Shown here: positions 21,946 through 64,000 of the stretch, one piece after another | How positions within the stretch are numbered: position 1 is the first letter of the stretch | Layout of the letters: each line of letters starts with the position of its first letter | From: Chrysaora quinquecirrha | Lineage: Eukaryota; Cnidaria; Scyphozoa; Semaeostomeae; Pelagiidae | Length of the DNA stretch: 64,000 bases | Assembly (NCBI GenBank): GCA_014526335.1 | Contig: JACTAT010000052.1 | Location: forward strand, 5,325,221-5,389,220 | Reading direction: 5' to 3' | Made by a program: the position numbers and the translations under genes | The notes under the pieces: model-generated | Database searches by the model: none | What the model saw: the letters and a program-made list of their open reading frames with translations, nothing else | Told to the model about the DNA's origin: nothing

Positions 21946-22350
21946 TGTACGATTTTTTGATTACAACGAATCAAATCAGACGAGAATTAGCGATCCAGAG
22001 ATCTGCTTCGACAGACCGTTAGGCCTTGTTTCAACAAAAAGAGGACTGTATGTTTTCTAATATTGATTTAAATCTATTTACACTATATACAATACGAATA
22101 TCACCAATATCACCTGAGAATACTTCATAGAGTAGATTCTTTAGTTCTTCTAAGAGTTATACGTTCAAGTTCAAGAGATTCTTCAAGAGTTCTAGGTTCT
22201 AAGATTCTAGTCAGCTTCATAGATCAACAATTTTCAACCAAAAAAAAAAAAAAAACTACAACGACACAACACATGACACACAAGACATCCACGTGATAAA
22301 CACTTAACATAAACGAGGTTAAAATATTCAATTCAACTAAAGTCTTTACA
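21946..22350 (-). repeat. 3' LTR of the BEL/Pao element
   Basis: 405 bp. Read on the minus strand it begins TGTAAAGACTTTAG and ends TCGTACA. It carries the 16-A run (T on the coding strand) that is 5 longer than in the other LTR. Confidence 0.95.
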
Positions 22351-22360
22351 CTCCCCCCTT
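22351..22360 (-). other. Polypurine tract of the BEL/Pao element
   Basis: Minus-strand AAGGGGGGAG abuts the start of the 3' LTR, the expected place for plus-strand DNA priming. Confidence 0.85.
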
Positions 22361-26500: not shown

Positions 26501-27976
26501 GTCTAAAATCATGCGAGCTATAATTGAATTCTGTAAATTGTCTACAGCGGAAATATACCCTTTGGCAGTTTGCAAGAGCACAGAATTCTTTGCATCAACA
26601 AACATTGTTGTCGTAGAACTAATATCATTGGGGTTCTGTGGCTGTGTGAAGGCTTGAGGCCGCAGCGATTCATTTCTGTTAGATGTGTTGACAGCTGAAT
26701 GAACTTGTGTTGAATTTTGGTTTCTAGGATTGTGTTGAAATCCGGGGGTGGCATAAGGGGCTTCGCAAATGCTGTTGTGATGACGATTTTTGCAGTTAAA
26801 GCATCGCACGTTGCTTTTACATTCTCTAGATAAGTGTCCCTTTTTCAAGCATACGAAACATTGCCCTTGTTTTTTCAAGATTTCTTTTCGGGCTCCAGGT
26901 TCGGTTACAGTGGGGCATTTCGCAGATAAATGTTTGTTTCGGCAAAAGGAACAAGTGACGGAGCTAGCATTACCCCCGTTAGCCAAAAGTGCAGAAGTTG
27001 TGGTATGCGAAATAGGTCGACTCGAATTTTGGAGAGGCCTTTGCCCTAGGACGGTTTGGTTGCAACGCTCTCTGGCCTCTAATTCTGAACTAAACAATTC
27101 AAGGATTTTGTCAAGTTCCCAATTTTCTTTGTTTAAACTCTTAGAGATAGCTAATCTTATCTCTTCTGGTAACTTAGACATGACCACAGGTATCAATAGC
27201 GTGCCATATTGCTCTGACTGTACTCCTAGCGACTTTAAGCTCCTTATATTTGTTTCTATCTCATCATACAGCTTTCTTAGAGACTTTATATCCTTGATCA
27301 TGGGAGCTTGGTTTATTTTCAAGAGTGCCTCAACGTGTGCATTGATGATGACTTGTTTCTGCGCAAACCTCGCTTTTAACAAATCAACGGCCTCAGAGTA
27401 GTTTGCTGAGGTCAAGGCTAAGCCGGATATTGTTGCGGCTGCAGGGCCTTCTACAAGGGTCTTCAGATGCCGTAGTTTGTAGACAGGAGACAGGGTTTCG
27501 TTACTGTCTATGGCTGAGGCATAAACATCCCACCACTCGTTCCATTTTCTGGGATCTCCGTTGTATTTTGGCAACTCTAGCTTTGGTAACTTAGGTGTGT
27601 AACGATTCGAGTTTGTGGGTAGAGAGGATGTTTCTGTATTCGAAGCGGTAGACCCTGCATGACTACTCGTTTGACTAATTGCCTTCGATTTTTCTCTGAG
27701 TTTTACTATCGCTTTCCTAATTTCTGATCGTTTTTCTTCACTATCAAAGATTTCTGTTTCTATATCACCATCATCTACTAAAGATACTATCTCTTCATCT
27801 AGATTCTTAATGAATAATTCTTTATCCGTTAAGATTTGTATGAAATGTTCTAGTTCGACTGGGGAAGGATTGAATTTGAGCATTTCGTTTTCAGCTTCCG
27901 CAACAATTTTGTTTGCATGGCCGCGATGACCTGCGCGTATCTTTTTCTTTTTTGCAAGTTCTTGAGACATGTTCAA
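23495..27976 (-). CDS. BEL/Pao gag-pol polyprotein (gag, PR, RT, RNase H, integrase N-terminus)
   Basis: 1493 codons. Gag-like DUF1759 region at about 60-330 (LPKLELPKYNGDPRKWNEWW near 128-149). Three Cys-rich knuckles lie at about 342-404 (CSFCRNKHLSAKC, CFVCLKKGHLSREC, CFNCKNRHHNSIC). The protease active site is LDNGS at about 491-495, an Asn at the residue that is often Ser or Thr in aspartic proteases. The RT catalytic box is YVDD at about 924-927 and the RNase H start is HGFCDAS at about 1123. The integrase zinc finger (His-His-Cys-Cys, ending CHECRKSK) is near the C terminus. The frame then runs out after 14 unrelated residues. RNA use is expected to be a single gag-pol frame, as in most BEL elements. 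Confidence 0.95.
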   Translation of the reverse strand: MNMSQELAKKKKIRAGHRGHANKIVAEAENEMLKFNPSPVELEHFIQILTDKELFIKNLDEEIVSLVDDGDIETEIFDSEEKRSEIRKAIVKLREKSKAISQTSSHAGSTASNTETSSLPTNSNRYTPKLPKLELPKYNGDPRKWNEWWDVYASAIDSNETLSPVYKLRHLKTLVEGPAAATISGLALTSANYSEAVDLLKARFAQKQVIINAHVEALLKINQAPMIKDIKSLRKLYDEIETNIRSLKSLGVQSEQYGTLLIPVVMSKLPEEIRLAISKSLNKENWELDKILELFSSELEARERCNQTVLGQRPLQNSSRPISHTTTSALLANGGNASSVTCSFCRNKHLSAKCPTVTEPGARKEILKKQGQCFVCLKKGHLSRECKSNVRCFNCKNRHHNSICEAPYATPGFQHNPRNQNSTQVHSAVNTSNRNESLRPQAFTQPQNPNDISSTTTMFVDAKNSVLLQTAKGYISAVDNLQNSIIARMILDNGSQKSYISQELRDKLRLPTLSRETLSIKTFGSDQGSFQTCDMTQIAIRSPYTEEILYVNVHVVPVVCAPLTSQVIKEAVNIYPHLQGLPLADFNPDEEGQMQIQILIGAEAMWNIMTGKCIRGELGPVALESKLGWVLSGNVPGISSAASTQANLIQTHVLRVGTETYSEITLNSDNKEPLENMLSKFWELESIGVSCPDENSVYEEFVEDVRFVDGRYEVKLPWKKDHPSLPDNYKLSLGRLNSLKKRLSTKPEILKEYDEIIQEQERRGIVEKVEPTEESPIGKTHYIPHQPVVKQDRTTTKLRIVYDASAKQDGQASLNDCLYPGPCLLHNVAEILTRLRFYKTALTSDIEKAFLMISIQPIDRDALRFLWFDDINEDNPKVIPMRFKRVIFGVSSSPFLLNATLDHHIRKYEEIYPEVTNKLFNALYVDDVTTGAYDEEECMKIYTVSKKLLSEGGFNLRKWRTNSSDLQSRINAEENEFLNSKHNDEFSSGTSSTKMNVKSTETEKILEEQKVLGLTWDSHKDTIKFNLAELVQQSKEEETKRTILKSIAKVFDPLGLITPIITPIKVLFQKICEAKSGWDDNLPEEIDTIWKKWVNSCKKTITIEVPRYHFKEVEGRPAKIDLHGFCDASQDAYAAAVYVKYSSGNSTKVDLVMSKTRVSPLKKLSIPRLELMSCLVLSRLMDTVKKSLKPIVEIKNIRYWSDSITAIYWIKGLDRDWKLFVDNRVQEIRKLSRFEQWSHCPGADNPADLPSRGILPSKLQENKVWWSGPDWLARDEDEWPVMKNLPTIPETCKDEERRKSSEREVETSSLHVNTEVSKIDRILPLNKFSSFNKLVRVTSYVLRFIANCKKNERKAGHLTTDEIQIAETLLIKNMQTELNVKENQLENQLGIFTDTDGLIRCGGRLKNADLPYKSKYPILLPRDSYLTELIIKNCHTQVYHNGVKETLLQLRSRFWIVKGRQKVKKILRNCHECRKSKVFLMEIRNLQIYQHFV

Positions 27977-28057: not shown

Positions 28058-28457
28058 TGTACGATTTTTTGATTACAACGAATCAAATCAGACGAGAATT
28101 AGCGATCCAGAGATCTGCTTCGACAGACCGTTAGGCCTTGTTTCAACAAAAAGAGGACTGTATGTTTTCTAATATTGATTTAAATCTATTTACACTATAT
28201 ACAATACGAATATCACCAATATCACCTGAGAATACTTCATAGAGTAGATTCTTTAGTTCTTCTAAGAGTTATACGTTCAAGTTCAAGAGATTCTTCAAGA
28301 GTTCTAGGTTCTAAGATTCTAGTCAGCTTCATAGATCAACAATTTTCAACCAAAAAAAAAAACTACAACGACACAACACATGACACACAAGACATCCACG
28401 TGATAAACACTTAACATAAACGAGGTTAAAATATTCAATTCAACTAAAGTCTTTACA
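28058..28457 (-). repeat. 5' LTR of the BEL/Pao element
   Basis: 400 bp, otherwise matching the LTR at 21946-22350 apart from the shorter A run. Confidence 0.95.
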
Positions 28458-28586
28458 GTCAGTGACTACTATTACGTTCAGTCTGACTGTCTTATATATG
28501 GAATTTAGCTGATATTCTTAGGGCTTTTGAAAATGCCAGCCTCAGCTTGTTCTTATCGTGTTCCTGGTTCTTATAAAAAAAGAGTG
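28458..28586. mobile_element. Fragment of TA-MITE 'AAGAAC' type (copy D2)
   Basis: Matches the complement of D1 (35254-35611): GTCTGACTGTC, TTTAGCTGAT, CAGCCTCAGCTTGTTCTTAT, then GGTTCTTATAAAAAAAGAGTG followed by TA. The other half is missing; the BEL insertion sits at its left edge. Confidence 0.7.
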
Positions 28587-29036: not shown

Positions 29037-29193
29037 GAATCAGGAATGTTGTAACAATAAGATCGGAATTTCTATTCTCTGTGCACACAATTTAAACAAT
29101 CATTGAGATGATTAATTATTTTTATTGCAATTCAAATGCATACAATCAAAACAATGGAAGAGGTTGTTCCGAGTCTTCGAAATTTGGCATGTA

Positions 29194-32035
29194 GACCGGC
29201 TTCAGGTGGGGTCAAGTGCCACTCGAGGAGGTCATTAATGTCATAGTGATTTTTCGATAGCATTTCACATGGACTTTCAAAAAATTTGGTAAACGGTCGT
29301 TTTTTGCTGCGTTCGTGAAATACGGGGGTCAGAAAACCAGGGGGGTGACATAAACAAAAGTATTGACAGAGAATTTTGGGCAACATTCTAGCAAACTGGG
29401 TAGCCGGAATTTTAAAGTAGGTTTGGACTCTTTGGTGGTGGGTGGTCATTTTAAGACTTGGGAACATTCTGGCAAATCAATTGTTGTGACGTCATCGATG
29501 ACGTAGTAAAGTTACGGTCAGTGAAAATCTGACTTTTCAATTTTGTGTTTTTAATGATATGGTCGGAAAGAACATCTCAAATGGAGCAAAAAATTATAAA
29601 ACACCAATTCGATTTGGCTTAATACTCAGAAGTTATTAGGATTTGAAGTGAGTGACGTCATCAAAACGCAAAACTGATATTTTGAGTCTTAACCGTTTCG
29701 TGCATAAATCTTTCTTTTAATGTGTTCAGCGTTACTTTTAGGATAAAAGCATCATGTTCTCGGTCATTTACGCTAATTTTTGTCATTTTAAACCTTAAAT
29801 TACGAAGAATGCTCGTAATTTCTATTGCGATGCAGCTAGGGTTCCGAATTACTATGAATGTTGAAGAAGATGAAAAAGATAAAACATTTTCTGCTTATTT
29901 TCCCTGAGAATGGTAATATGACTGAGCTGGATAGAGCGAAGTACTAAAAAGTGGATCTCAAGGTAATCATATACAAAAGATATGGATACTGCTTACAAAG
30001 GTTGAACAGCCGCATTTTGATACGTGGTTAGAGGGAACAGTCACTTGGTTAGGAAGAAATGCTAGAAGAAAGAGGGGAACAGCCATGGAGGGTTGAGTTT
30101 CATTGCATAGATGAAACTCAATAACATCAATAGATATGTCCATTTCAGTCAACAAGATTGGCGAAAGACAGGAGGAAATTGCGCGGCCACTTGCCAGCTA
30201 CTAGCTATTGCTGAAATGAACTGGAGCGAATCTTAGCGAAACCAATCGACCGATTCAGTTTGAGTTCAATATTTCGGCAGCAAACTTTGTGCCAGAATAG
30301 GAGCCACAAGTCAGATAATATCTAAATTTGCGAACTTACCCTATAAATCCTATTTAGCCTTTTTCTTGCGTTTTTTCATTATTATCATTCAGCGCTCGTC
30401 TCTGCTATTATTGGAGAACTCACAGTGGCTTGTCCCACAAAGCCGCACTTACAGAGTTATACATTTGTCAACGTAACAACTTGCGAAATGCGTCTCTCAC
30501 CTTGCTACTCTAAAAAGTTAATCAAAATTCTTTGCAAAACTCAATTCCAATAGCCTATCGGTTACTGTTATCTTGTATAAATCTCTGTATTATGCCTATT
30601 AAGACTGATGAAAAGTGGCACACTTCGTACTTTGACACGAAAGTGAACGGATTTTTCTGTGTTTAGGGTGAGCCGTAGTATTTGTATTCCTCTCCACTCC
30701 ACCACCAAGCCTTGTTTCAAACTAGCCATATCCGCTGACGATAACCGCCTTCATCTACACCTACACCTGTGCCTATGCCTTCGCCTACTCCTATGCCTTC
30801 ATCTACACCTACACCTGTGCCTATGTCATCGCTTATGCCTTTGCCTATGCCTTCACCTATAGCTGTGCCTATACCATTGCCTATGCCTACACCTTTATCT
30901 GTGCCTTAGCCTACATCTATGCCTACATCTACACCGACGCCTGTGCCTATGCCTTCGCCTACACTAATGCCTACATCTCACCTAAACCTGTACCTAAGGC
31001 TTGTCCGATGCCTATGCCGTCATCTACACACACGCCTGTGCCTATGCCTTTGCCTATGCCTTTGCCTACATCTCACCTACGCCTGTGCCTTCGCCTTCGT
31101 CTATGCCTTTGCCTACACCTATACCTATCCCTTAGCCTAGACCTATGCCTTCATCTACACCTACACTTGTTCCTATGCCTTCGCCTATGCCTTTGTCTAC
31201 AACTTATCAACATAGGTGTCTGTCGTCTTCCCGAGCATTTACGGCTACATAAATCAAATAAAAGACCATGGTCATAAAAATTTAATTCGCTCTATCTAGC
31301 TCAATCATATTACCATTCTCAGGGAAAGTAAGCAGAAAATGTTTTATCTTTTTCATCTTCTTCAACATTCATAGTAGTTCGGAACCCTAGCTGCATCGCA
31401 ATAGAAATTACGAGCATTCTTCGTAATTTAAGGTTTGAAATGACAAAAATTAGCGTAAGTGACCGAGAACATGATGCTTTTATCCTAAAAGTAACCCTGA
31501 ACACATCAAAAGAAAGATTTATGCACGAAACGGTTAAGACTCAAAATATCAGTTTTGCGTTTTGATGACGTCACTCACTTCAAATCCTAATAACTTCTGA
31601 GTATTAAGCCAAATCGAATTGGTGTTTTATAATTTTTTGCTCCATTTGAGATGTTCTTTCCGACCATATCATTAAAAACACAAAATTGAAAAGTCAGATT
31701 TTCACTGACCGTAACTTTACTACGTCATCGATGACGTCACAACAATTGATTTGCCAGAATGTTCCCAAGTCTTAAAATGACCACCCACCACCAAAGAGTC
31801 CAAACCTACTTTAAAATTCCGACTACCCAGTTTGCTAGAATGTTGCCCAAAATTCTCTGTCAATACTTTTGTTTATGTCGCCCCCCCTGGTTTTCTGACC
31901 CCCGTATTTCACGAACGCAGCAAAAAACGACCGTTTACCAAATTTTTTTTGAAAGTCCATGTGAAATGCTATCGAAAAATCACTATGACATTAATGACCT
32001 CCTCGAGTGGCACTTGACCCCACCTGAAGCCGGTC
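29194..32035. mobile_element. Large element with ~750-bp inverted arms
   Basis: The left arm at about 29194-29940 and right arm at about 31284-32035 are reverse complements with few differences; both contain TGACGTCATCGATGACGTAG and CACCTGAAGCCGGTC. TA lies directly outside both ends (29192-29193, 32036-32037), consistent with a TA target duplication. The arms encode mirrored ORFs (111 and 138 codons) without recognisable domain. The 1.34-kb spacer includes a hexamer array and no transposase, so it is probably non-autonomous. Confidence 0.85.
30745..31205. repeat. Hexamer array CCTAYR inside the large element
   Basis: Continuous variants of GCCTATGCCTTC and ACCTACACCTGT with a six-base period. 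Plus-strand ORFs of Leu/His/Cys repeats (30659-31277) are by-products. Confidence 0.9.
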
Positions 32036-32037
32036 TA

Positions 32038-32642
32038 CTCGGGTTACGAGCTCGATCCACGATGCAGGAAACTAAAAATTTGACGCCAGATTTTCTCGCA
32101 AAAAAGCCGGCTCGGTCGGGCTTCAGAAAAAGGTTTGACTACAATATTGCAAAATGTTGCTCAAATCTAATTTGATTTGATTTTTTATTTTGAAATATTT
32201 TCATACAATTTTTGATTGGGTTGTTATTCTCAGAGGTTTCTAGAAGTCCTCTTACATGTAAGATATTTTCGTGTGAAAAGAGGAGGAGATTGTGGCGTAG
32301 TAGAAATTGTTGCCAAGTTATAGACAGAAGAAATTTTTTCAAAACAGTTTGCGGCGTCGATAATCATCTGAAAATAAATGGTTCAAAGTTGGCAATCAAT
32401 TCTTCAAAGTGCTATGCTAATTATCGAATATAATCATCTGCATAGTATGCGAATTTTTATGATAGCTTTTGGAGATTCTAGAATTAAATTCATCATTTGA
32501 AGCGAAGATTACAGGTTTCGGTGCACTGAAGGGAGTTATTTATTACACAGTTTAACCTATGAGCTCAAATTTATTAGTACATATACGTTACTAGAGGTTT
32601 TCTATTTTCGATTCAAAGTTTTGGTATTCTTCCAGGAAAGAT
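32038..32642. other. Intergenic, nothing recognised
   Basis: No supported ORF, RNA or repeat boundary. Confidence 0.4.
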
Positions 32643-34485: not shown

Positions 34486-37446
34486 TTACCATCTTCTTCG
34501 TCTGCCAGTCCAACCCCAATTTTTACATCGACGACGACATCTCCAGCAAGGGTCTATACTTAAACAGCTGTGGCCTGGATCTGTTATAATAACGATAAAG
34601 GGTTTTTTCTATTAACAATATATAAGTGTACACGCTTTTTTTATAAGGAACCACTTTATAAGGAACCTACATGTAGAAGGCCCGAAAATTTAAAGAACTT
34701 ATACCATTAGAGAGAAAATAACTAAAGAAATTTTTATTGTTGAATAGTTTTATCACTGCAAATAATCAAGAATGAGAAAGCCGGTTCCATTCAATTGCAG
34801 TCAAAAATCACATAAATTGTACGTTAAGCATGTATCAAATGTTTCCATGAGTAGTCTGGAGCTTTGCTCACATGCAAGTGTCTCTCTTTTAATGTTAAGA
34901 ACACTGTATATGCAGTAAAAATTAAGGAACTATTGGACTTTTTGAACTACAATTGCCTCAAAAGAGGTCCAAAAATGAGGAACTTTAAGAACTAGGCCTT
35001 TAGGTAGGTTCCTTATAAAAAAAGCGTGTAGTTTTGAAAGAAAACCCACCAAGACTTGGGAAACACCTTTTCCATTTATGACAGATGTCTTTAAGGAAAG
35101 GGCTACAAATCGTTCTCTGAGAAATATGAAGTTCAGATTTTAATAAAACGAGAAGCAATTTATGTTGGCTCTAATTCGGATAAAAAAACTAAAAGACAAA
35201 ATGAAAAGACAATTTGAAAGGACAATTTGGTAGTTTGATAATTTGCTCACATACACTCTTTTTTTTATAAGAACAATTTTATAAGAACACGAGCCTGGAT
35301 TTTGCACAGATTTTAAGAACAAAATAAGAACAAGCTGAGGCTGGGCGTTTTCATAAGCCCTGAAAACATCAGCTAAATATGAAAGTACGACAGTCAGACA
35401 ACGTAAAAAGCAAGCAAACAATGAAATGGACAAGCATGCTCCATTTTTACACAACCCTATTACCACTAAAGACATTCACTGACAGAATCTAGATGTCTCA
35501 GTAACCAAGGAATTAAGAACAGATTAAGAACATTTCGGGCTCAAAAAGGGCAAAAACTTAAGAACAGCCAGCCTCAATCAAAATTTCCTGGTTCTTATAA
35601 AAAAAAGAGTGTAAATGGCATGCGGTTCATGCTTTCAGTTTGCCTATTCATTTTGCTGTACAAGAATGGCTTTTCATATTGTAGTATCAAAACGTCTATT
35701 AATTTTGCTATTTCATGTACTTTATCGAAATGACTTTTCATTTTGTCTGTTCAGTTTTGGTATTCGAAATGTCTATTCAAATTGTCTATTCGAAATGTCT
35801 ATTCGACGAAATGTCCTTTCGAAACGTCTAATCTTAATGTCTATTCGATTTGGTCTGAGCTGAGGCTTGAGTTCCTTAATTTTTCGACAAAATGAGGCTG
35901 AAGTTCCTTATATTTGAACGCAAGATTTTCCTTGAAAAGATTGAAAATCTATGTCCCCAATTTAAATCGATCCCAACAAATGAACAAAAATTCATATATC
36001 CAATGACATGCGAAAATGAAACTTTGATAAAAGATACAAGCGAATTCATTTCAACTATATATGATAAACGCTTACAAGCAAATTAAAAAAAAAAAAAGAA
36101 AAAAAAAACTAGAGCTTTTTAGAACCTTAATTTTTATTAACACTCAACTGTCATGTAACTTACGTATCTTTTTCTAATTAACATTGTATTTTGTTATGTT
36201 GTAGTGTAGTTGTAGACCATGTATCACATGATATAGCGTCGAATTTGAAAAAAAAAAAAAAAATTGTTCCTTGTCATGACATATGTTTGAATACTAATTT
36301 TTACAGCAAATTCATATAAATTTGCTTCATTTTCTAACTTTTAATATAAATGGAGTCTTTTTGGCAGAACGATGGGAAATATATTGTTATTCTGTTATTT
36401 TCTGTACAAATAGTCTTGCTCTTGAAAAAATTCATTCCTAGTTTTTCATCCAGCCTCGACAGTGCCTTAAAGTTCCTTAATTTTTTGGGAATTGTCAGCC
36501 TTGAGTTCCTTATAAAGGTGTTCCTTATAAAAAAAGCGTGTAGGGAGAAAAAGTGACGAAAATCAGGGGCAAAACGAACCTTGACGTTTAACATCTTTCT
36601 CACGTGTAAGGAGATCTTCTACATCATCATCGACTTCTTCCTCTTCGTTTGCGCCTAAATCAGAATTTTCGGAGTTACGGCGTTTGTATACTTTAGAAGA
36701 TTCAGTTAAAATCTCCAATACAAGGAGGGGCTTGAAGTTATGTGGAGTCAGGAGGGGCTTGAAGTTATGTGGAGAAAGGGGGTGGTGCTATCAACCTTTT
36801 ACTGCAGAGCAGAGGTATAACAATTTTCAATAGGTTCCAACATTAGTTGTTTCACGAAGTGAAAATTCGGTCGGCCATCCCTCGTTTGCAAAAAAATTAT
36901 TACAGTAATAACGGACAAACTTGAAGGGCAATTCAGTGGAATCCCGCACACCTTTTGACGGGCGCGGGATCTCTATTGTTTTCACAGAAATCTCTTTAAA
37001 AACGGTGCAGAAAGAAATAAGAATGTGGTTCTCATTCTCATATTATTAGGGTCCTCGTAGGAGTTGGGGGTTAAAGAGGGTGCAGATGGGGGTTTAAGTG
37101 TTATTGGACAATTTTCTGAACTGTCAAGTGTTAAAGAAGCAAAATTTTACAGTTAACTGTAATATTAAATTTTATAGAGATTTAAGAGTAACACAGTATG
37201 TTTCATCATTTTCTTCTTTATTATCGTCATCATCATCATCAATGATGGTAAAATCATAATCATCATTGTCATTATCACTATCATCATCAATCACCAACAC
37301 TACCACCATCATCATCATCATCATCTTCATTGTTTCGTCATCATCAACAAAATGATCAATTAATCAAGGTATCATTGTCATCGTCATAATCATGATGATC
37401 GAAACCATGATCATGATTGTCAGTATCATCATTTTCATCATAATCT

Positions 37447-37495
<49 letters not shown>

Positions 37496-37907
37496 ATATC
37501 ATCATCAATATGAAGGTAATTTATCAAAACTATCATCACGATCGTGGACGAAATCATGAAAAGTTAGTCAGCAACCTCAAAAAGAAAAAAATGTGGCAGG
37601 ATATTGTAAAACCAAGTCATTTTCCTTTCATAAATGGTGGGTTTTCTGTGCCATGGAATCACTACATGCTGCACAAATAATTAAACTGTTAGCTGTTTTT
37701 CGACTTAATTTTTAAGTGTTAAATGTTAATTCATGAATTTTTTTGAAGTTAACTGTTTGGTTGACCCCCCCCCCCATCTGGACCCTCGTTAAAGAGGCAA
37801 TGAAAAATCAACTGTACTTACTGCAAAATGCAAATGCGAACCCAAGAACAAGAACCAGAACCCAAAATGTCTTCATTTTTTGAAGTCTTTTCGCAGATCA
37901 AAAACTC
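34486..37907 (-). CDS. Secreted cationic Cys/Trp/Arg-rich peptide precursor (AMP-like), minus-strand gene
   Basis: Three coding exons: 37907-37822 (ATG at 37876; 5' part is leader after an AG acceptor), 36654-36580 and 34553-34486. The phases agree throughout and the 65-codon product is intact. Residues 1-18 are a signal peptide (MKTFWVLVLVLGFAFAFC). Next is an acidic pro-segment with a Glu-Glu-Glu-Glu-Val-Asp-Asp-Asp run, ending KDVKRQ. The mature part starts DPCWRCRRRCKNWGWTG and ends RRRRW, with three Cys and net charge of about +8. KR followed by Gln suggests dibasic cleavage and possibly an N-terminal pyroglutamate. Introns hold MITEs B1 and D1 and the E1 relative. The layout is that of antimicrobial peptide precursors; I cannot name the family. 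It is divergent to the paralogue at 40099. Confidence 0.82.
34631..35028. mobile_element. TA-flanked MITE, 'AAGGAAC' type (copy B1)
   Basis: Ends CACGCTTTTTTTATAAGGAA and TTCCTTATAAAAAAAGCGTG are flanked by TA (34629-34630, 35029-35030). The left end carries two tandem TTATAAGGAACC motifs. A second copy starts at 63924 with the same first 75 bp or so. It lies in the last intron of the minus-strand AMP-like gene. Confidence 0.85.
35254..35611. mobile_element. TA-flanked MITE, 'AAGAAC' type (copy D1)
   Basis: Ends CACTCTTTTTTTTATAAGAAC and GTTCTTATAAAAAAAAGAGTG are flanked by TA (35252-35253, 35612-35613). AAGAAC recurs at least six times inside. In the last intron of the minus-strand AMP-like gene. 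Confidence 0.85.
36350..36540. mobile_element. TA-MITE relative (copy E1)
   Basis: The right end carries two TTCCTTATAAA motifs and ends AGCGTG followed by TA. It is the complement of the B1 left end. The body matches E2 at 20540. The left boundary is unclear; GAGTTCCTTAATTTTTCG near 35870 may be its remnant. Confidence 0.6.
37205..37505. repeat. (ATC/CAT)n microsatellite in the AMP-like gene intron
   Basis: Interrupted CATCAT runs. In intron 1 of the minus-strand peptide gene. A second C/T-poor tract ends in a nine-C run near 37765. Confidence 0.85.
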
Positions 37908-37964
37908 CTGAAGTACAGAACAAAGAAGTTCAGATTTTAATAAATGGGATACAGTACACTGGTA

Positions 37965-38580
37965 TAATAGATGACACCAAGATAAAATAAGAGAACTAAG
38001 ATAGTCTAACTTGTGCATAGTTTATCCCCAGGCAAAGTGACGTTTCTAACCAGGCAATTTCTATTTTTGTAACAAGACTCCTATAGGCTACTGTTGCGGT
38101 TTGGTCCCGGATTGGTAGCCACTCAATGCTCCCCTCTTTCTCTCTTCAAACAGCCCTCTACTAAAGTTTGTTTTGTCCGCCATTACTTCTGTTCAGAATT
38201 GCAAATTTGCCGCCGTTGGAAATAGCTTCTGCGCACGCGCCCGTGCATTAAGAAACATTTTGCCGGACTTACCGAAGTTCATCTCTCCAACAAGAAATAG
38301 AAACTGAAGCACTTTACGTCGTCACATTGCTTAGGATAAACCTGTGCAAGATATCAAACTACCCGATATTAAAAGGCAGTAACTTTAGTTTCTTTTGAAC
38401 CAACTGGTGAAATTTGTGCATCGAAAGAATCATCAATGTCTGGACGAAGAAATTATACAGTTGTTTTGATATATATACTATGCTCGCAAAATCCAAAAGA
38501 AGCATGAATCAAATTGGCTAAAATGACAAGATTCAGTTGGACTATCTTGGTTCTCTTATTTTATCTTGATGACACATACA
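37965..38580. promoter_or_regulatory. Shared head-to-head upstream region of the two AMP-like genes
   Basis: About 40 bp recur in inverted orientation: minus strand at about 38012-37973 and plus strand at about 38535-38575, both carrying ACTATCTTRGTTCTCTTATT then TTATCTTG. In the minus-strand gene this block directly precedes TATACCAGTGTACTGTATCC and the splice acceptor. In the plus-strand gene the equivalent acceptor-side block (TATACCAGTATACTGTATCC, about 40058) is 1.5 kb away. This marks the pair as an inverted duplication with transcription starts or leader exons near the blocks. No binding site was identified. Confidence 0.5.
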
Positions 38581-38754
38581 TGGAAAAATACAAGAGCTTT
38601 CGGTATGTCGGAACTTAGAATAACTTGGAATAACTTACCTTCAGAAAAATACCATCCGAACACCAACTGCTCCCAACTGAATGACACGGAAAGTCTCATT
38701 TTGCCTGCTTAAATAATATAAGATCATTCTATAAATTCTTCCTCCCGTTAAACA

Positions 38755-39500
38755 GACCAGGGGGGGTACTTCAATTGTTCATTATCGCCCAAATTGGTAA
38801 ATTTCTTCCGCTGGTTCAATAGAGTCTATATTGTTCAAGGGAAGAAATGAAGGCATTTAAATTGCAATATACTGCATGTATGCAAAAAATAATGGAAATA
38901 AATAGATAAGGATAATAAAGCGGATTTTTTTTTCTTTTTTGTTTCTTTTCTTTTCTCTGGTCTTTTTGTTATTTGTTTGTTTGTATTAGAGTATACACAC
39001 ATATTATACTAAGCAGCCATGCCTGTAAAAAGGTAGTGTGGAATTGCGGATTAAAAAAAGAAAAAAAACTCAATGTTTCTTCCGCTGGTTGAAAAGAGCG
39101 GAAGATTTTCCCATAAATGCACTGTTTAGCCGGGGGGTACTTCATTGTTCAAGGGAAGAAATGAAGGCATTTAAATTGCAGTGAGAATACTGCATGTATG
39201 CAAAAAATAATGGAAATAAATAGATAAGGATATAAAATTCAATGTTTCTTCCGCTGGTTGAAAAGAGCTGAAGATTTTCCCATAAAGGCACTGTTTAGCA
39301 GGGGGGGGGGCGGGTACTTCATTGTTTAACGGAAGAAATGAAGGCATTTAAGTTGCAGTGAGAATACTGTATACAAAAAAATAACGAAAATAAATAGATA
39401 AGAATAATAAAACTCAATGTTTCTTCCGCTGGTTGAAAAGAGCGGAAGATTTTCCCATAAAGGCACTGTTTAGCCGGGGGGGGGTACTTCATTGTTCAAA
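38755..39500. repeat. Tandem repeat of ~174 bp in the 5' intron of the plus-strand AMP-like gene
   Basis: Units contain GGGGGGTACTTCATTGTTCA, GAAGAAATGAAGGCATTTAA and TTTCTTCCGCTGGTTGAAAAG. GTACTTCATTGTT starts near 39137, 39314 and 39484, with an earlier unit near 38766. A related phrase recurs at about 41485-41530 in the intron between the two alternative last exons. Confidence 0.8.
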
Positions 39501-39623
39501 TGACTAGACGTGCCGCCCCGTTTTTCCAAACCCGTCCATGTCTTCCGATAAATTATGTCATCCGTGGTACCCATAACCCATGTATAGAAAAACAACGAAA
39601 TTCTTCACCCATTTGTACCAATA

Positions 39624-40012
39624 CACGTTTTTTTATAAGAAACCGGTTTATAAGAAACGTAGAACTAGACACCCTAAAAGTTAAGAAACTTTTAGAACTA
39701 GGAGGAAGGAGTTAAGAAACTTAAGAAATTTTTGTGTCAGTTTTCCAACATACTGATTTCACATTTGTGGACGTAGTAATCAATTCTCAAGCATTTCCGT
39801 GCGATTTCTCGCACCCAGCATGGCCAATTCTTTGTAATACAATAATATTAATAATTTGCTTGCTATATTCACGTTTTTTTATCGTTTTACTGCAATTTTT
39901 TCCATTAAATTAAGAAACTGTCATGAAACTTTTAGCACTAAAATTGGGCCAAAAATTAAGAAACTTTTAGAACTAGGCCACGAGCCAGGTTTCTTATAAA
40001 AAATGAAACGTG
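39624..40012. mobile_element. TA-flanked MITE, 'AAGAAAC' type (copy A2)
   Basis: Ends CACGTTTTTTTATAAGAAACC and GGTTTCTTATAAAA..ACGTG are flanked by TA (39622-39623, 40013-40014). TTAAGAAACTTTTAGAACTA recurs inside, as in A1. It ends 86 bp before the leader/signal exon acceptor of the plus-strand AMP-like gene. Confidence 0.85.
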
Positions 40013-40098
40013 TACGAGTTCCAAAAAGATAAATACATTTTCACGCAGCTAACTTTATACCAGTATACTGTATCCCTTGTTTTTTTTTTGTATTTCAG

Positions 40099-41227
40099 GA
40101 ATTGTTGATCTTATTTTGAAGTCGAGAGAGCTTGAAAAAATGAAGACAATTTGGCTTATGGTTCTTGTTCTGGGGCTTGCATTTGCACTTTTTTGCAGTA
40201 AGTAGGATTTTCATTACATCTTTGCATTGAACATTGCGTACAGTCAGAACTAGCTGTAGCTACCCCTACTAGAGGGGGGCTTTCGGGGTAGCCAATCTAA
40301 ACCCAAAAACCCGGAAGAAAATCGGAACAAACCCAAAAAAAACCCGGATGGCCTTAGTTTCAACTACTATTTTAAAAATTTTACATATTGATATCCTTTG
40401 TGGGGTTTAAAACCCGAAAACCCGCAGATTTTTACTACAACATCTGAAACCGGAGCTAGGAAAATGGCAAAACCTGTTGCCCGTCAAATATACTTGACCC
40501 GAAAACCCGCACAATTTTTTGGAAAACCCCGAAAACCCGAGGGCGAAATCGGCCAAACCCGGAACCCGTGAAACCCCAAAGCCCCCCTCACATATGCGTT
40601 CTGGCAACTAGTTCTTTTTTGATGGGAACTTATCGACGCACAGTTAGTTGCAAAAAGTTGGGCATGTTCTATTTGTCTATTTTTGCGATTAGTTGACAAC
40701 TGATTCCCGTCAGTCGCAGTCGACATGCGCGCTCTTACGACCTGATAAATTGTATCAAAAAAGCTCTGACTAGATGTGGACATGTCGACATGAGTTAGCT
40801 AGCAGTTACGACTGGTTGGCGTTAGTTCTATCGTATCATAAGTCGACATAACCCTAGCTTTTTAGGGACCCAAAAATGGCTCTACCGAGCGTTTAAAAAA
40901 ACTCTTACTCTAAATCATGATTAATGTTCCAATTTAGGTGCAGAAGAGGAAGAAGTCGATGATGATGGAAATGATTTCGATGGGCCTTATGAGGATGAGA
41001 AAGACGTTGAACAACAAGGTTCGTTTTAGCCCGTGATTTTGGCACTTTTTCGTAGCTTTTACGTTTAATATAATAGGTGTGTACCAAATCTTGGTGGGTT
41101 TTCCACCAAAATTACATTTTGTTACATTTTTAATACAGATCCCGGCTGCGACAAAGCAAGCTCCTGCACCAGATGTCGTCGTCGATGTAACAATTGGGGA
41201 TGGCGTGGCAGAAGAAGAAGATGGTAA
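40099..41227 (+). CDS. Secreted cationic Cys/Trp/Arg-rich peptide precursor (AMP-like), plus-strand gene, isoform 1
   Basis: Exons 40099-40197 (ATG at 40140), 40938-41018 and 41139-41227, with consistent phases (1, 1) and GT/AG borders; 75 codons. The signal peptide is MKTIWLMVLVLGLAFALFC. The acidic pro-segment (about 26 residues) has five Glu/Val then three Asp and ends KDVEQQ. The C-terminal part starts DPGCDKASSCTRCRRRC, continues NNWGWRG and ends RRRRW: four Cys, net charge about +8. Unlike the minus-strand paralogue there is no KR before the Gln, so processing may differ. Secretion and microbial-membrane action are inferred from the architecture; a signalling peptide is the alternative. 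The stop lies inside what would otherwise look like a splice donor (ATGGTAAAG). Confidence 0.85.
40270..40591. mobile_element. Inverted-repeat element with AGGGGGGCTTT ends, in AMP-like intron
   Basis: Begins AGGGGGGCTTTCGGGG and ends CCCCAAAGCCCCCCT. The interior is rich in AACCCGAAAACCC. The left part recurs at about 44886-45003 and 47786-47908, each cut off by satellite. Confidence 0.75.
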
Positions 41228-41643
41228 AGAACGGAAAGGTGGAAGGGAGAACTTCAATTTCTGGCTTTTACTTGCATACTTTTCTTGAATTTTTGTTGTT
41301 TTTCATTTCATTGCTGAAGTATGCCGTACTGATCAGTTGTGTTTCTGTTTCTCTCTTCTCATATAAGTTCAGTTGATGGACCTGACCGACCAATAAGCAT
41401 TGTTTGACGTTACAACCCAAGTTACAACCCCATTAGCCAATCAGGGGCAAACACAAAAGTTTCTCATTATAAATAGTAAAATAAGTTGGGGGGGGAGGGT
41501 ACTTCCATTGTTCTTTACTAGATGTGTCGCCCAAATGGGTAACTTTCTCAGCAAAAATTTTCCTACATTTAGGTTTGTTTTTCGTAAAGAATCACTACAA
41601 ATGATTTCGATATATTGCTAACATGGTTAACCTTTTACAACAG

Positions 41644-41708
41644 ACCCCGATCAGTGCACCTATCGCCGATGTAACCGTTGGACCTGGGGCAGAAGAAGAA
41701 GATGGTAA
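41644..41708 (+). CDS. Alternative last exon of the plus-strand AMP-like gene (isoform 2)
   Basis: After an AG acceptor in the same phase as the 41139 exon it reads DPDQCTYRRCNRWTWG then RRRRW and TAA. Joined to exon 2 it gives a 67-residue precursor with only two Cys in the mature part. The first exon ends in a stop, so the two must be alternatives. The 3' flank GTAAAGAACGGAAAGGTGGA is the same after both exons, showing a local duplication with a period of about 505 bp. Confidence 0.78.
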
Positions 41709-42923: not shown

Positions 42924-43468
42924 GATCATGTGGCCGCAGGGTTTTTTTAAAGTGCAGTTGTACACAAAATGTGCAGTTCTAAAAATTTTTGTCCAGTTCT
43001 TGAAGATAAATTGTGCAGTTGAGAAGCTGGCATAAAACATACAGTAGTTCCCATTATTTTAAGCATTGTTGTCCTATACTAAATAATAAATGTTATATTT
43101 TTTGCAAAATGGCCTGGTTTCATAGTTAGATTTTGCATATTCCAATCACGAAATGACCACCAGAGCGATTCTAGAGAGATTCTATTGGACTATAAGGATA
43201 GTGTGCAGTTCTAAATTTTTCTTAAAAAAAAAACCTGTGTGGCCGCCTTTCCAACATTGCTTGTCAAACATTTCTTTTACTTTTGACCAATTTTGACAAC
43301 TTGCGACATTTCAACATCTAACAACACTTTGGGCCCTGACCAAACGATCAAACATTTGCAATTTGCTAATCAAGGACAATGTTTTTCCGTTTGGCCACAT
43401 CACAAAACATTGCTCGTCCAACATTTTTTGCTTGATAAAGGCATTTGCTGAGCGAATTCTGCTTTTCC

Positions 43469-43853
43469 AAGGGGGACTCACTATGAATACATGACGGGGG
43501 GTCAGACACAGGCTCTCCCCAAAAAACCCAACAATACACATATTTCAGGAATTTCATACCCCAAAAATATACCAAACAATCTTCGTATGTCTCTCCGTAT
43601 CAGGATTTTCACCTTCAATAAGGCTCCCCTGACACCCTATTCAACTGACCCAACCCAGCAAAACACTCTCTTGTTCAGAATATCTGTACTTTGTCGTGAG
43701 TTTTCTTGATTTTTTTGTGAATTAATCCAAAATTATACCAATTTCACTAAATAGAAGACCAAAATTAAACTAAATTCCATTTTTCAGTACCTACCCAAAG
43801 TGTCTGACCCCCCACCATCACTTACCTGTAGCGATAGCAAGTCCCCCTCTGGG
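43469..43853. mobile_element. Inverted-repeat element with AGGGGGACT ends (also at about 46371-46753)
   Basis: Left AGGGGGACTCACTATGAATAC and right GTAGCGATAGCAAGTCCCCCT are inverted, as are subterminal GGGGGGTCAGACAC and GTGTCTGACCCCCC. It sits inside GTTTGACC-family sequence and occurs once in each copy of the 2.9-kb duplication. Plus-strand ORFs of 70-90 codons here are not called. Confidence 0.75.
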
Positions 43854-45003
43854 CTGCTTGTCAAGCAATGTTTTGCGACGTAGCAAAACGGTCAAATATA
43901 GCGGTCAAACACATTTTCATCGTTTGGCCCAGATTTTAGAAGCACAAGCAAGGTATTCGTGCATGCGCATTAGCAGTAACTTCGTTGTTCACAGGGTTTG
44001 ACAGCAATGTTTTTGGACAAGGCCAAATGGTGGAACATTTGTTGTAAAGCAATTTTAAATGTTAGACCGACAACGAACAAACTATTTTCATCCAACATCT
44101 GAAATCTGCTTTCAAGCGAAATGTTTGACCTCTTGGCCACTTCTAAAACCATTGCGCGTCCAATATTTTTTTTGCTTTCGTCAAGCAAATTTTTTTTGGA
44201 ATGTTTCAAAAACATCACGCCACAGATTTTTTCACTTTTGCTTGTCAAGCAATGTTTGAGCGTTTGGCCATCTGTCCAACATTACTTGTCAAACATTTTG
44301 ACCAACTTTGACAACTTGCGACATTTGAGCACCTAGCAACATTTCTTAGAAGCAAGGCGTTCTTGCTTGCGCATTAGCATAGCAATAACTTCGTTGTTCC
44401 AAAGTGTTTGACAGCAATTATTTTGGACATGGACAAACGGTCAAACATTTGTTGTAAAACAAAAAGCTATTTCAAATGTTGGACTAATCGTGTTTGATCG
44501 TTTGGCCAGGGCCTGAAGAAACAAACATTGTTTGTCAAGCATACAAAATTTGTTTATCAAGATTTATGTTTAAACGTAATTGACCACGTCACGAAACATG
44601 CTTGACAAGCAAAATTTGTTGCTTAACTCTTTCTCGTTCTTCTTTTTTGATCTCTTACTTTATGCAAGAAAACAATGTTTTTGGAGCACTGCTTCGCGAC
44701 GTGGCCAAACAGTTAACTCTTTGCATCACAAGCAACTTATAAATGTTTGACAAAAAATGTTTGATCGGCTCACACAAATAATTTTGACGTAGGCAAAATA
44801 TTTGTAACAAGTAATATTTGCGACATGGCCAAGCGGTCAAAGAGTTTGTTGGTAAAAACATTTCGAATATTTAAAAATAATTTTTGGAGGGGGCTTTGGG
44901 GGTATCAAACCCGAAAACACGGAAGAAAACTGGGACAAACCTGAAAACCTGGATGACCTTAGTTTCAACAACTGTTTTGAGAATTTTTACATTGATATCC
45001 TTT

Positions 45004-45827
45004 GTTTTTACCAGCAATGTTTGACCAACAATGTTCTCCAATGTTTGACCAACAACATTTGTGTAACAGTGTTCTACCAGCGACGGTTGATCTTGACCAA
45101 CAATGCTCACAAATGTTTGACCAACAGTGCTTGAACTTGAACCACAATCTTCTCAAATGTTTGACCAACATTTTTTATACCAGTAATGATTGACCAACAA
45201 TGTTCTCCAATGTTTGACCAACAGTGTTTGACCTTGAACCACAATCTTCTCAAATGTTTGACCAACATTTTTTATACCAGCAATGATTGACCAACAATGT
45301 TCTCCAATCTTTGACCAACAACATTTGCAGAACATTGTTTTACAAGCGACAGTTGATCTTAACCAACAATGCTTTCACATGTTTGACCAACAGTGTTTGA
45401 CCTGGAACCACAAATGTTTCAAAATGTTTGTCCAACAATGTTTGACCAACAATGTTCTCCAATGTTTCACCAACAACATTTGCGTAACAGTTATACCAGC
45501 AAAGGTTGACCTGTTTGACCAACAGTGTTTGACCTTGAACCACAAATGTTTTAAAATGTTTGTCCAATAATGTTTGACCAACAATGTTCTCCAATGTTTG
45601 ACCAACAACATTTGCATAACAGTTATACCAGCAAAGGTTGACCTGTTTGACCAACAGTGTTTGACCTTGAACCACAAATGTCTTAAACTGTTTGGCCAAC
45701 AATGTTTGACCAACAATGTTCTCCAATGTTTGACCAACAATGTTCTCCAATGTTTGACCAACAACATTTGCGTAACAGTTATACCAGCAAAGGTTGACCT
45801 GTTTGACCAACAGTGTTTGACCTTGAA
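45004..45827. repeat. TGTTTGACCAACA satellite, first block
   Basis: Imperfect units of AACAATGTTCTCCAATGTTTGACC and ACCTTGAACCACAAATG start abruptly at the truncated AGGGGGGCTTT element. The same left edge is present in the second block (47908). Confidence 0.9.
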
Positions 45828-47907
45828 GATCATGTGGCCGCAGGGTTTTTAAAGTGCAGTTGTACACAAAATGTGCAGTTCTAAAAATTTTTGTCCAGTT
45901 CTTGAAGATAAATTGTGCAGTTGAGAAGCTGGCATAAAACATACAGTAGTTCCCATTATTTTAAGCATTGTTGTCCTATACTAAATAATAAATGTTATAT
46001 TTTTTGCAAAATGGCCTGGTTTCATAGTTAGATTTTGCATATTCCAATCACGAAATGACCACCAGAGCGATTCTAGAGAGATTCTATTGGACTATAAGGA
46101 TAGTGTGCAGTTCTAAATTTTTCTTAAAAAAAAAACCTGTGTGGCTGCCTTTCCAACATTGCTTGTCAAACATTTCTTTTACTTTTGACCAATTTTGACA
46201 ACTTGCGACATTTCAACATCTAACAACACTTTGGGCCCTGACCAAACGATCAAACATTTGCAATTTGCTAATCAAGGACAATGTTTTTCCGTTTGGCCAC
46301 ATCACAAAACATTGCTCGTCCAACATTTTTTGCTTGATAAAGGCATTTGCTGAGCGAATTCTGCTTTTCCAAGGGGGGGGGGACTCACTATGAATACATG
46401 ACGGGGGGTCAGACACAGGCTCTCCCCAAAAAACCCAACAATACACATATTTCAGGAATTTCATACCCCAAAAATATACCAAACAATCTTCGTATGTCTC
46501 TCCGTATCAGGATTTTCACCTTCAATAAGGCTCCCCTGACACCCTATTCAACTGACCCAACCCAGCAAAACACTCTCTTGTTCAGAATATCTGTACTTTG
46601 TCGTGAGTTTTCTTGATTTTTGTGAATTAATCCAAAATTATACCAATTTCACTAAATAGAAGACCAAAATTAAACTAAATTCCATTTTTCAGTACCTACC
46701 CAAAGTGTCTGACCCCCCACCATCACTTACCTGTAGCGATAGCAAGTCCCCCTCTGGGCTGCTTGTCAAGCAATGTTTTGCGACGTAGCAAAACGGTCAA
46801 ATATAGCGGTCAAACACATTTTCATCGTTTGGCCCAGATTTTAGAAGCACAAGCAAGGTATTCGTGCATGCGCATTAGCAGTAACTTCGTTGTTCACAGG
46901 GTTTGACAGCAATGTTTTTGGACAAGGCCAAATGGTGGAACATTTGTTGTAAAGCAATTTTAAATGTTAGACCGACAACGAACAAACTATTTTCATCCAA
47001 CATCTGAAATCTGCTTTCAAGCGAAATGTTTGACCTCTTGGCCACTTCTAAAACCATTGCGCGTCCAATATTTTTTGCTTTCGTCAAGCAAATTTTTTGG
47101 AATGTTTCAAAACATCACGCCACAGATTTTTTCACTTTTGCTTGTCAAGCAATGTTTGAGCGTTTGGCCATCTGTCCAACATTACTTGTCAAACATTTTG
47201 ACCAACTTTGACAACTTGCGACATTTGAGCACCTAGCAACATTTCTTAGAAGCAAGGCGTTCTTGCTTGCGCATTAGCATAGCAATAACTTCGTTGTTCC
47301 AAAGTGTTTGACAGCAATTATTTTGGACATGGACAAACGGTCAAACATTTGTTGTAAAACAAAAAGCTATTTCAAATGTTGGACTAATCGTGTTTGATCG
47401 TTTGGCCAGGGCCTGAAGAAACAAACATTGTTTGTCAAGCATACAAAATTTGTTTATCAAGATTTATGTTTAAACGTAATTGACCACGTCACGAAACATG
47501 CTTGACAAGCAAAATTTGTTGCTTAACTCTTTCTCGTTCTTCTTTTTTGATCTCTTACTTTATGCAAGAAAACAATGTTTTTGGAGCACTGCTTCGCGAC
47601 GTGGCCAAACAGTTAACTCTTTGCATCACAAGCAACTTATAAATGTTTGACAAAAAATGTTTGATCGGCTCACACAAATAATTTTGACGTAGGCAAAATA
47701 TTTGTAACAAGTAATATTTGCGACATGGCCAAGCGGTCAAAGAGTTTGTTGGTAAAAACATTTCGAATATTTAAAAATAATTTTTGGAGGGGGGCTTTGG
47801 GGGGTATCAAAACCCGAAAACACGGAAGAAAACTGGGACAAACCCGAAAACCTGGATGACCTTAGTTTCAACAACTGTTTTGAGAATTTTTACATTGATA
47901 TCCTTTG

Positions 47908-49640
47908 TTTTTACCAGCAATGTTTGACCAACAATGTTCTCCAATGTTTGACCAACAACATTTGTGTAACAGTGTTCTACCAGCGACGGTTGATCTTGAC
48001 CAACAATGCTCACAAATGTTTGACCAACAGTGCTTGAACTTGAACCACAATCTTCTCAAATGTTTGACCAACATTTTTTATACCAGTAATGATTGACCAA
48101 CAATGTTCTCCAATGTTTGACCAACAGTGTTTGACCTTGAACCACAATCTTCTCAAATGTTTGACCAACATTTTTATACCAGCAATGATTGACCAACAAT
48201 GTTCTCAATCTTTGACCAACAACATTTGCAGAACATTGTTTTACAAGCGACAGTTGATCTTAACCAACAATGCTTTCACATGTTTGACCAACAGTGTTTG
48301 ACCTGGAACCACAAATGTTTCAAAATGTTTGTCCAACAATGTTTGACCAACAATGTTCTCCAATGTTTCACCAACAACATTTGCGTAACAGTTATACCAG
48401 CAAAGGTTGACCTGTTTGACCAACAGTGTTTGACCTTGAACCACAAATGTTTTAAAATGTTTGTCCAATAATGTTTGACCAACAATGTTCTCCAATGTTT
48501 GACCAACAACATTTGCATAACAGTTATACCAGCAAAGGTTGACCTGTTTGACCAACAGTGTTTGACCTTGAACCACAAATGTCTTAAACTGTTTGGCCAA
48601 CAATGTTTGACCAACAATGTTCTCCAATGTTTGACCAACAATGTTCTCCAATGTTTGACCAACAACATTTGCGTAACAGTTATACCAGCAAAGGTTGACC
48701 TGTTTGACCAACAGTGTTTGACCTTGAACCACAAATGTCTTAAACTGTTTGGCCAACAATGTTTGACCAACAATGTTCTCCAATGTTTGACCAACAACAT
48801 TTGCGTAACAGTTATACCAGCAAAGGTTGACCTGTTTGACCAACAGTGTTTGACCTTGAACCACAAATGTTTCAAAATGTTTGTCCAACAATGTTTGACC
48901 AACAATGTTCTCCAATGTTTCACCAACAACATTTGCATAACAGTTATACCAGCAAAGGTTGACCTGTTTGACCAACAGTGTTTGACCTTGAACCACAAAT
49001 GTCTTAAACTGTTTGGCCAACAATGTTTGACCAACAATGTTCTCCAATGTTTGACCAACAATGTTCTCCAATGTTTGACCAACAACATTTGCGTAACAGT
49101 TATACCAGCAAAGGTTGACCTGTTTGACCAACAGTGTTTGACCTTGAACCACAAATGTCTTAAACTGTTTGGCAAACAATGTTTGACCAACAATGTTCTC
49201 CAATGTTTGACCAACAACATTTGCGTAACAGTTATACCAGCAAAGGTTGACCTGTTTGACCAACAGTGTTTGACCTTGAACCACAAATGTCTTAAAATGT
49301 TTGGCCAACAATGTTTGACCAACAATGTTCTCCAATGTTTGACCAACAATGTTCTCCAATGTTTGACCAACAACATTTGCATAACAGTTATACCAGCAAA
49401 GGTTGACCTTAACCAACAATGCTGTCAAATGTTTGACCAACAGTGTTTGACCTTAAATCTCAATGTTCCAAAATGTTTGGGCAACAATGTTTGACCATGA
49501 ACCACAATGTTCTGCCAACAATGTTTGACCAGCAGTGTTGGACTCAACCAACATTGTTCTCGAGTTTGAACAACATTTGACCAACAATGGTGTCAAATGT
49601 TTATACAAATTTTGACAAACAAGCAACTTCGCATTGTAGA
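47908..49640. repeat. TGTTTGACCAACA satellite, second block with 132/156-bp units
   Basis: GTTATACCAGCAAAGGTTGACC occurs at 48391, 48523, 48679, 48811, 48943, 49099, 49231 and 49387, so spacings are 132, 156, 132, 132, 156, 132 and 156. The 156-bp form has one extra 24-bp module. The array degrades after about 49440. Since all lengths are multiples of 12, three frames stay open for 339-399 codons; I treat these as non-coding. Confidence 0.93.
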
Positions 49641-63923: not shown

Positions 63924-64000
63924 CACTTTTTTTTGTAAGGAACCACTTTATAAGGAACCTACATGTAGAAGGCCCGAAAATTTAAAGAACTTATACTAGA
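63924..64000. mobile_element. TA-MITE 'AAGGAAC' type (copy B2), cut by the window end
   Basis: CACTTTTTTTTGTAAGGAACC after TA (63922-63923), then the same AACCTACATGTAGAAGGCCCG as B1 at 34631. The right end is outside. Confidence 0.8.

Follow-up and report, generated by a model that had tools for sequence, protein, structure and literature searches.

We analysed a window of 64,000 nucleotides (the whole stretch of DNA under study) from the scyphozoan Chrysaora quinquecirrha (assembly GCA_014526335.1, contig JACTAT010000052.1, positions 5,325,221 to 5,389,220), in which two divergent genes, here called A and B, appear to belong to a large and seemingly undescribed family of small secreted peptides rich in arginine, tryptophan and cysteine. 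Judged from the sequence, the family looks real, and we hold with moderate confidence that its members are secreted host-defence (antimicrobial-like) peptides forming a multigene family restricted to one lineage. An earlier note on this DNA had described the genes as a pair; the two genes are indeed present, but the term understates the case, since their three last exons are among at least 25 distinct ones.

Both genes are built of a signal-peptide exon, an acidic pro exon and a small last exon. Gene A lies on the minus strand: exon 1 (37822-37876; MKTFWVLVLVLGFAFAFCS) and exon 2 (36580-36654; ANEEEEVDDDVEDLLTREKDVKRQ; phase 1/1) were read from the sequence, and the last exon (34486-34580; DPGHSCLSIDPCWRCRRRCKNWGWTGRRRRW followed by a stop codon, four Cys) from the sequence and the family alignment. 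Gene B lies on the plus strand and comprises exon 1 (40140-40197; MKTIWLMVLVLGLAFALFCS), exon 2 (40938-41018; AEEEEVDDDGNDFDGPYEDEKDVEQQ; read from the sequence) and two alternative last exons, 3a (41139-41227; DPGCDKASSCTRCRRRCNNWGWRGRRRRW and a stop, four Cys) and 3b (41644-41708; DPDQCTYRRCNRWTWGRRRRW and a stop, two Cys), the latter belonging to a tandem duplication. The product of gene A is referred to as A, and those of gene B as Ba (with exon 3a) and Bb (with exon 3b); the precursors are 74, 75 and 67 amino acids long, respectively. The introns of both genes are GT-AG throughout and of phase 1/1, and the donor sequences GTAAGTA and GTTCGTTTT are common to them. The signals were assigned from their hydrophobicity and their CSA site. 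Most of what the earlier note had said of this layout agrees with our reading of the exons: two paralogous, divergent three-part precursor genes, conserved phases and donors, and no exon longer than 33 codons. Its cysteine counts for gene B (four and two) are also right, whereas the three cysteines it gave for gene A are in fact four.

An acceptor-like CAG is kept in both genes and lies ahead of the ATG by 31 nt in A and 41 nt in B; this suggests that it marks an intron of the 5' untranslated region (5'UTR) or a trans-splice site, with the 5'UTR stretches after it at 37877-37907 (gene A, minus strand) and 40099-40139 (gene B, plus strand). The duplication of the two genes took upstream DNA along: a 40-bp block, 90% identical between them, is found at 37972-38011 (gene A, minus strand; the outer end of the inverted duplication) and at 38535-38574 (gene B, plus strand), where it is by now parted from the 5'UTR stretch by some 1.5 kb of sequence rich in repeats. 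The spacer of 523 bp between the duplicated arms (38012-38534, no strand assigned) is possibly a shared divergent promoter. Also, copies, whole or partial, of a family resembling miniature inverted-repeat transposable elements, with ends TACACGCTTTTTTTATAAGGAAC, lie within gene A's introns and in the DNA preceding gene B (34629-35031, 36470-36543, 39622-40014); further ones are at 20921-20958 and 63928-63996.

We searched the 328-Mb assembly (740 contigs) for similarity to the precursors. The Ba precursor gave nine exon matches at E<=0.001, and that of A gave 47 at E<=10, many of them weak. In total 22 genomic stretches were read, the first 20 of which were chosen from precursor matches and searched, along with the window, for last exons in which any of ten residue types, and not Trp alone, could follow the Arg run. 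This search returned 30 matches. After leaving out one spurious match (on C252) and six exons on the presumed allelic contigs C203, C511 and C389, 23 distinct last exons remain, and two on C224 bring the number to 25; this is a lower bound, and only a minority of the signal-exon matches was read. Both a signal exon and an acidic exon precede 19 of the 25, and complete three-exon precursors number 15 (A and B included), plus two on C224. The majority of last-exon loci hold at least two last exons. Phase 1/1 and GT/AG were presupposed by the exon finder, and at the other loci they are not independent evidence.

The common trait of all 25 last exons is the C-terminal end of Gly, four or five Arg and Trp (four Arg in 20 and five in three of the first 23). 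The motif CRRRC is present in 23 of 25 (21 of the first 23); four cysteines are likewise found in 23 (21 of the first set) and two cysteines in the remaining two. Every one of the first 23 contains two to four Trp and a net charge of at least +5 (+5 to +14, mean +7.6), and the most frequent residues are Arg, Cys, Ser, Gly and Trp. The pro exons are acidic (-5 to -13, mean -9.4, n=17, with C245a counted with an inferred RQ end). The last exon starts with DP in at least 20 of 23, a count which is too low because the N-termini of C266c and C266f were cut short in the alignment; a second alignment is also cut N-terminally, for C252a, C266a, C266d and C103.

The loci were partly found via their tails, so stretches downstream of signal exons serve as a tail-independent check. 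On C224 (C224:2231300-2238100, L048), found by the signal exon alone, both of the signal-led genes show an acidic exon and a CRRRC...G-R4/5-W last exon; the two genes are alike and form a tandem with a distance of about 2.4 kb, one residue and one Arg distinguishing their mature parts. Further signal-exon matches on C224 are at 2220130, 2231162 and 2401303. Overall, two of the four signal-led genes followed for more than 2 kb have canonical last exons, and none of the four showed a recognisable alternative tail. In the shorter stretches (about 1.56 kb each), C69 contains a pro exon (ADEEEFDDMTDFIGPDEEDFERQ), and neither a pro nor a last exon was found on C1.

Concerning the question of chance, loose cationic Cys/Trp last exons occur on average 3.7 times (range 1-9) in 20 first-order Markov shuffles of the window and 16 times in the real window, several of the latter nested or in a duplicated segment; being so frequent in shuffled sequence, a mature exon alone proves little. 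The comparison of A with Ba says more: 44 of the 216 aligned coding bases differ, and the start, the stop and the frame are kept. Equal neutral drift keeps these three in about 5% of simulations (3,000 from each gene), and these together with the splice dinucleotides in 0.7-0.8%. The exon lengths of the two genes differ by 3, 6 and 6 nt, consistent with kept frames. The drift simulations and the genome-wide family lead us to reject a chance origin of the exons. Some alignable intron and upstream pieces of A and B are also 70-90% identical, so the identity of the exons is by itself no proof of selection. The nonsynonymous and synonymous substitution rates (dN/dS, method of Nei and Gojobori, NG86) are 0.215/0.357 overall, and by part 0.09/0.26 (signal, the lowest), 0.29/0.41 (pro) and 0.25/0.40 (mature). 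Across the family, the ratios of means are 0.36 for the signal (117 of 120 pairs usable), 0.52 for the pro (98 of 136) and 0.31 for the mature part (199 of 253), with dS near saturation. As judged from these alignments, purifying selection (dN/dS below 1) acts on all three exons. In the tail, the Arg codons show synonymous variation (AGA, CGA, AGG, CGG) and Gly is written with each of its four codons (GGC 11, GGA 8, GGT 2, GGG 2), which argues that the tail is preserved at the protein level. A separate observation concerns the CRRRC motif, the Arg codons of which are nearly fixed (CGT in 20 of 22, CGT in 20 of 23 and CGA in 22 of 23) with freely varying Cys codons beside them; a constraint at the nucleotide level is possible there.

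A and Ba share the cysteine framework C-x5-C-x2-C-x3-C. The two variants with two cysteines, Bb (which has TGCACC and CGATGTAAC in common with Ba) and the C266 gene ending at 584796, are both without C1 and C3 and keep C2 and C4 in the alignments; random loss would remove this same pair in both with a chance of 1/36. This paired loss suggests a disulfide pairing of 1-3/2-4. Concerning the release of the peptide, Lys or Arg is found within the last two residues of the pro exon in 12 of 17 cases (RQ, SK, RR, RK, IK, YK) if the downstream donor is taken; several pro exons have two possible donors, and B and C252b show only the downstream one there. Two further pro/last junctions (C245a and C266c) are unclear. 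Such a basic end fits the release of a peptide beginning at or beside the DP of exon 3.

The fate of the tail can be read in two ways. The mature peptide possibly ends in RRRRW, and the Gly directly before the Arg run, present in all of the first 23 last exons and in both C224 genes, could also be an amidation site. Convertases tend to disfavour an aromatic residue behind their cleavage site. The invariance of the Trp that follows the Arg run (25 of 25) would be pointless in a discarded residue, and we therefore lean slightly towards a retained tail. The residue before the Gly varies (G 6, S 6, W 6, T 3, N 1, R 1; n=23). A role as a defence peptide can be reconciled with either fate.

Exons 3a and 3b of gene B each end in a stop codon and are thus mutually exclusive; two intact last exons behind a single pro exon are also found at the C134/C389 locus. 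The contig C203 runs co-linear with this locus of the window (identity of the main pieces, 88.6-99.7%) and is presumed to be its other allele. It is without window bases 41360-41662, and so keeps only one last exon of gene B, without 3b, and the signal exon of gene B is missing as well. Gene content thus seems to differ between alleles, or the assembly may be in error. These absences would also suit a gene B that is decaying as assembled, with 3b recently duplicated and non-functional and the B locus being lost, a situation which fits any function of the peptides. We regard it as unlikely, as the frame, splice sites and stops of B are intact in the window and C134/C389 has the same arrangement of intact last exons. 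Allelism was examined by DNA comparison for three pairs only, and the treatment as alleles is a cautious choice: C511 and C120 are 95-99% identical over their longer pieces, and C134 and C389 are 90-98% identical, with one piece of 302 bases at 79% and with different first last exons. C389 may therefore be a paralogue instead of an allele, which would raise the number of last exons by one.

No match above the cut-off was found in Pfam and NCBIfam for the three precursors and the 23 last exons; the best weak profile matches are E 0.0036 in NCBIfam (16.9 bits against a cut-off of 70) and E 0.012 in Pfam. Sequence and profile searches of the PDB gave no match (best E 0.3-0.4, to unrelated proteins), and tblastn gave no homologue. 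A search of a set of 5.8 billion proteins, in which very short proteins may be under-represented, returned 30 candidates, none with E<=10; that set includes animal sequences and fairly close relatives, as the matches of a neighbouring phosphoenolpyruvate carboxykinase (PEPCK) gene demonstrate, yet no match to the peptides. Six sequence strings of the family occur in no paper of the open-licence PMC literature. Among the papers listed there on RRRRW peptides, those looked at are, by their titles and the starts of their abstracts, mostly reviews or on designed, cell-penetrating or nullomer peptides, with one Ciona antimicrobial; those on CRRRC in the same literature contain, by title, nothing on such cnidarian peptides. 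The earlier note's impression of an undescribed family with an unfamiliar Cys/Trp pattern thus agrees with the database searches.

Protegrin and tachyplesin are beta-hairpin antimicrobial peptides with a 1-4/2-3 ladder pairing. They are short and Arg-rich like the present peptides, with two disulfides and an Arg run between cysteines, whereas the paired Cys loss here points to 1-3/2-4. Arminins are not known to contain cysteine, whereas all 23 last exons do. Arminins of Hydra and arminin-like placozoan peptides combine a signal, a highly acidic pro part and a basic C-terminal part with expanded paralogues and a Gly that could be amidated, as here; the placozoan precursors are about 150-250 amino acids long (PMC12013895), in contrast to the 67-75 of the window precursors with their two-disulfide core and terminal G-R4/5-W. 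Damicornin of corals has a signal, an acidic proregion, a basic cleavage site, a cationic Cys-rich C-terminal peptide and possible amidation, and differs in its six cysteines in 40 residues, as opposed to the four of this family (PMC4306955). The closest in composition is HyCWR of Hydra, also secreted, Cys/Trp-rich and with a basic C-terminal part and restricted paralogues in shared loci; its antimicrobial role is proposed and unproven (PMC10945409). HyCWR has six cysteines and no conventional cleavage site (PMC10945409), whereas the peptides studied here have four (21 of 23) or two (2 of 23) and mostly a basic residue at the junction, and are Trp-rich as well; the two are set apart by description, not by comparison of sequences. 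By their cysteine counts the present peptides fall outside the HyCWR, arminin and damicornin families; their architecture resembles all three, and their Cys framework and tail differ.

The layout of these precursors is that of many antimicrobial ones: a hydrophobic signal, a net-negative pro part and a net-positive C-terminal peptide. The earlier note's term 'AMP-like' (AMP, antimicrobial peptide) is borne out as far as architecture goes (signal, acidic pro, cationic last exon, restricted multigene family, variable loops). Exon layout, family, conservation, charges and purifying selection are readable from the DNA, and from these we infer the following course of expression, processing, folding and targeting. 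The signal exon would direct the precursor to the secretory pathway, where the acidic pro part (-5 to -13) would mask the cationic peptide (+5 to +14) before its removal, with cleavage mostly at the basic residue adjoining the exon 2/3 junction. The freed peptide would fold via two disulfides (predicted 1-3 and 2-4) around the invariant CRRRC, followed by a variable Trp-rich linker, and the C-terminal G-RRRR(R)-W would either be kept as a second arginine cluster or be clipped, the Gly yielding an amide as in damicornin. Its target would be anionic microbial surfaces. With two last exons behind a shared signal and pro exon, one gene could yield different mature peptides. A further-reaching proposal, which we advance tentatively and with some doubt, is that the family represents a new structural class (fixed CRRRC, retained G-RRRR(R)-W, 1-3/2-4 disulfides and variable loops) and a still-expanding arsenal, diversified by duplication, interchangeable last exons and allele-variable exon content.

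Several observations count against the host-defence reading. C254 has signal and pro exons and no recognisable last exon within 4.4 kb, and C201 has a signal exon and neither a pro nor a last exon recognisable within 4.6 kb. Three of the 17 pro exons (Ba, C219a, C266b) do not end in a basic residue, and in several other members the basic end depends on choosing the downstream donor. With the tail removed, the charge would be only +1 for Bb and C219b and +3 for A. The AlphaFold models of the gene A mature exon are of low confidence (predicted local distance difference test, pLDDT, 59 and 65; predicted template modelling score, pTM, about 0.2; from the single sequence and a 23-row alignment), so no fold backs this role. 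The lack of homologues elsewhere was counted in its favour, because antimicrobial peptide families of Hydra are likewise taxonomically restricted, being also fast-evolving, clustered and charge-bipartite (PMC10945409).

Other functions for such peptides have also to be considered. A large family with fixed cysteines and variable loops would suit venom or nematocyst peptides, in which a signal and a basic-ended pro part precede a short disulfide-rich peptide acting on channels or membranes of prey or predators, and sea anemones do have two-disulfide toxins (BBH and PHAB folds; PMC6627431). We consider this improbable, given that no Pfam or PDB match was found and that two very basic fixed clusters with a Trp-rich linker resemble membrane- or polyanion-binding peptides more. 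Amidated signalling peptides rank slightly lower still. Here x-G-RRRR would be a convertase and amidation site and the products would end in -NWGWT-NH2, -NNWGWR-NH2 or -NRWTW-NH2, with Bb a small cyclic W-amide; the Gly before the Arg run, written with all four codons, speaks for them, and GRR/GKR sites are employed by cnidarian neuropeptides, as are acidic N-terminal sites and an N-terminal Gln (PMC9545775, PMC6909153). The C-x4-C ring of Bb equals in size that of the cyclic FRamides of Cubozoa and Scyphozoa, and the two also share a G-R-R site; the precursors of those FRamides hold several near-identical copies (seven in Tripedalia) with a CWFRamide end (PMC6402141, PMC6909153). The present precursors, however, hold a single copy without CWFR (Bb reads CTYRRCNRWTWG), the residue to be discarded after the Arg run is Trp in every case, Arg runs also occur inside the disulfide core, and the residue that would bear the amide is not conserved. 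The least probable alternative is that of secreted polyanion-binding or structural peptides (for mucus, capsule poly-glutamate, heparan sulfate or extracellular matrix) which are not microbicides: the invariant Arg clusters and the acidic pro segment suit it, but variable loops and a lineage-restricted expansion suggest a biotic arms race.

The rest of the window contains other genes and repeats. A gene of the GTP-type PEPCK is located at 50189-57855 on the minus strand, with at least six exons, the outer ones read by eye. Among the best 120 of 7,996 matches its product is 83-84% identical to three proteins, P0001-P0003, encoded on contigs of 2.1-3.1 kb. If one incomplete sturgeon record, which is flagged as contamination, is set aside, Hydractinia (69%) follows, and then, among the named matches, Hydra (66%) and Orbicella (66%). 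In a quick tree built from the window sequence and 57 of these 120 matches (58 rows; arbitrary root) it groups with P0001-P0003 (Shimodaira-Hasegawa-like approximate likelihood ratio test, SH-aLRT, 100), and these four fall outside the hydrozoan and stony-coral groups. BEL/Pao retrotransposon frames are found at 22395-27976, between two direct repeats, each about 405 bp long (21946-22353 and 28058-28460), the 98.5% identity of which suggests a recent insertion; the best Pao match is 55% identical over 99% of the query, with Acropora (44%), Dendronephthya (43%) and a pseudoscorpion (36%) among the matches listed. Taken by themselves, the PEPCK tree and the Pao matches indicate an early-branching animal, probably a cnidarian that belongs neither to the sampled Hydrozoa nor to the stony corals, and less probably a sponge. 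An inverted repeat of 756 bp (29191-29943 and 31283-32038; 98% identical) has its arms about 1.3 kb apart. There is also a tandem direct duplication of about 2.9 kb (42924-45827 and 45828-48728; 99.3% identical), within which tandem arrays of 97/132/156 bp extend to about 49.4 kb, and arrays of 22/41/63 bp at 58366-59728 form two inverted blocks (58366-58997 and 59421-59728).

Returning to the candidate defence peptides, the family demonstrates that a large part of the peptides secreted by an early animal may remain unseen, its exons being too short for ordinary ORF calling and matching nothing in the protein set. If active, the peptides would provide a compact Arg/Trp scaffold with two disulfides, of which nature offers variants (four-Cys, two-Cys and loop swaps) suited to finding out which parts matter, as well as an example of defence peptides diversified through alternative last exons.

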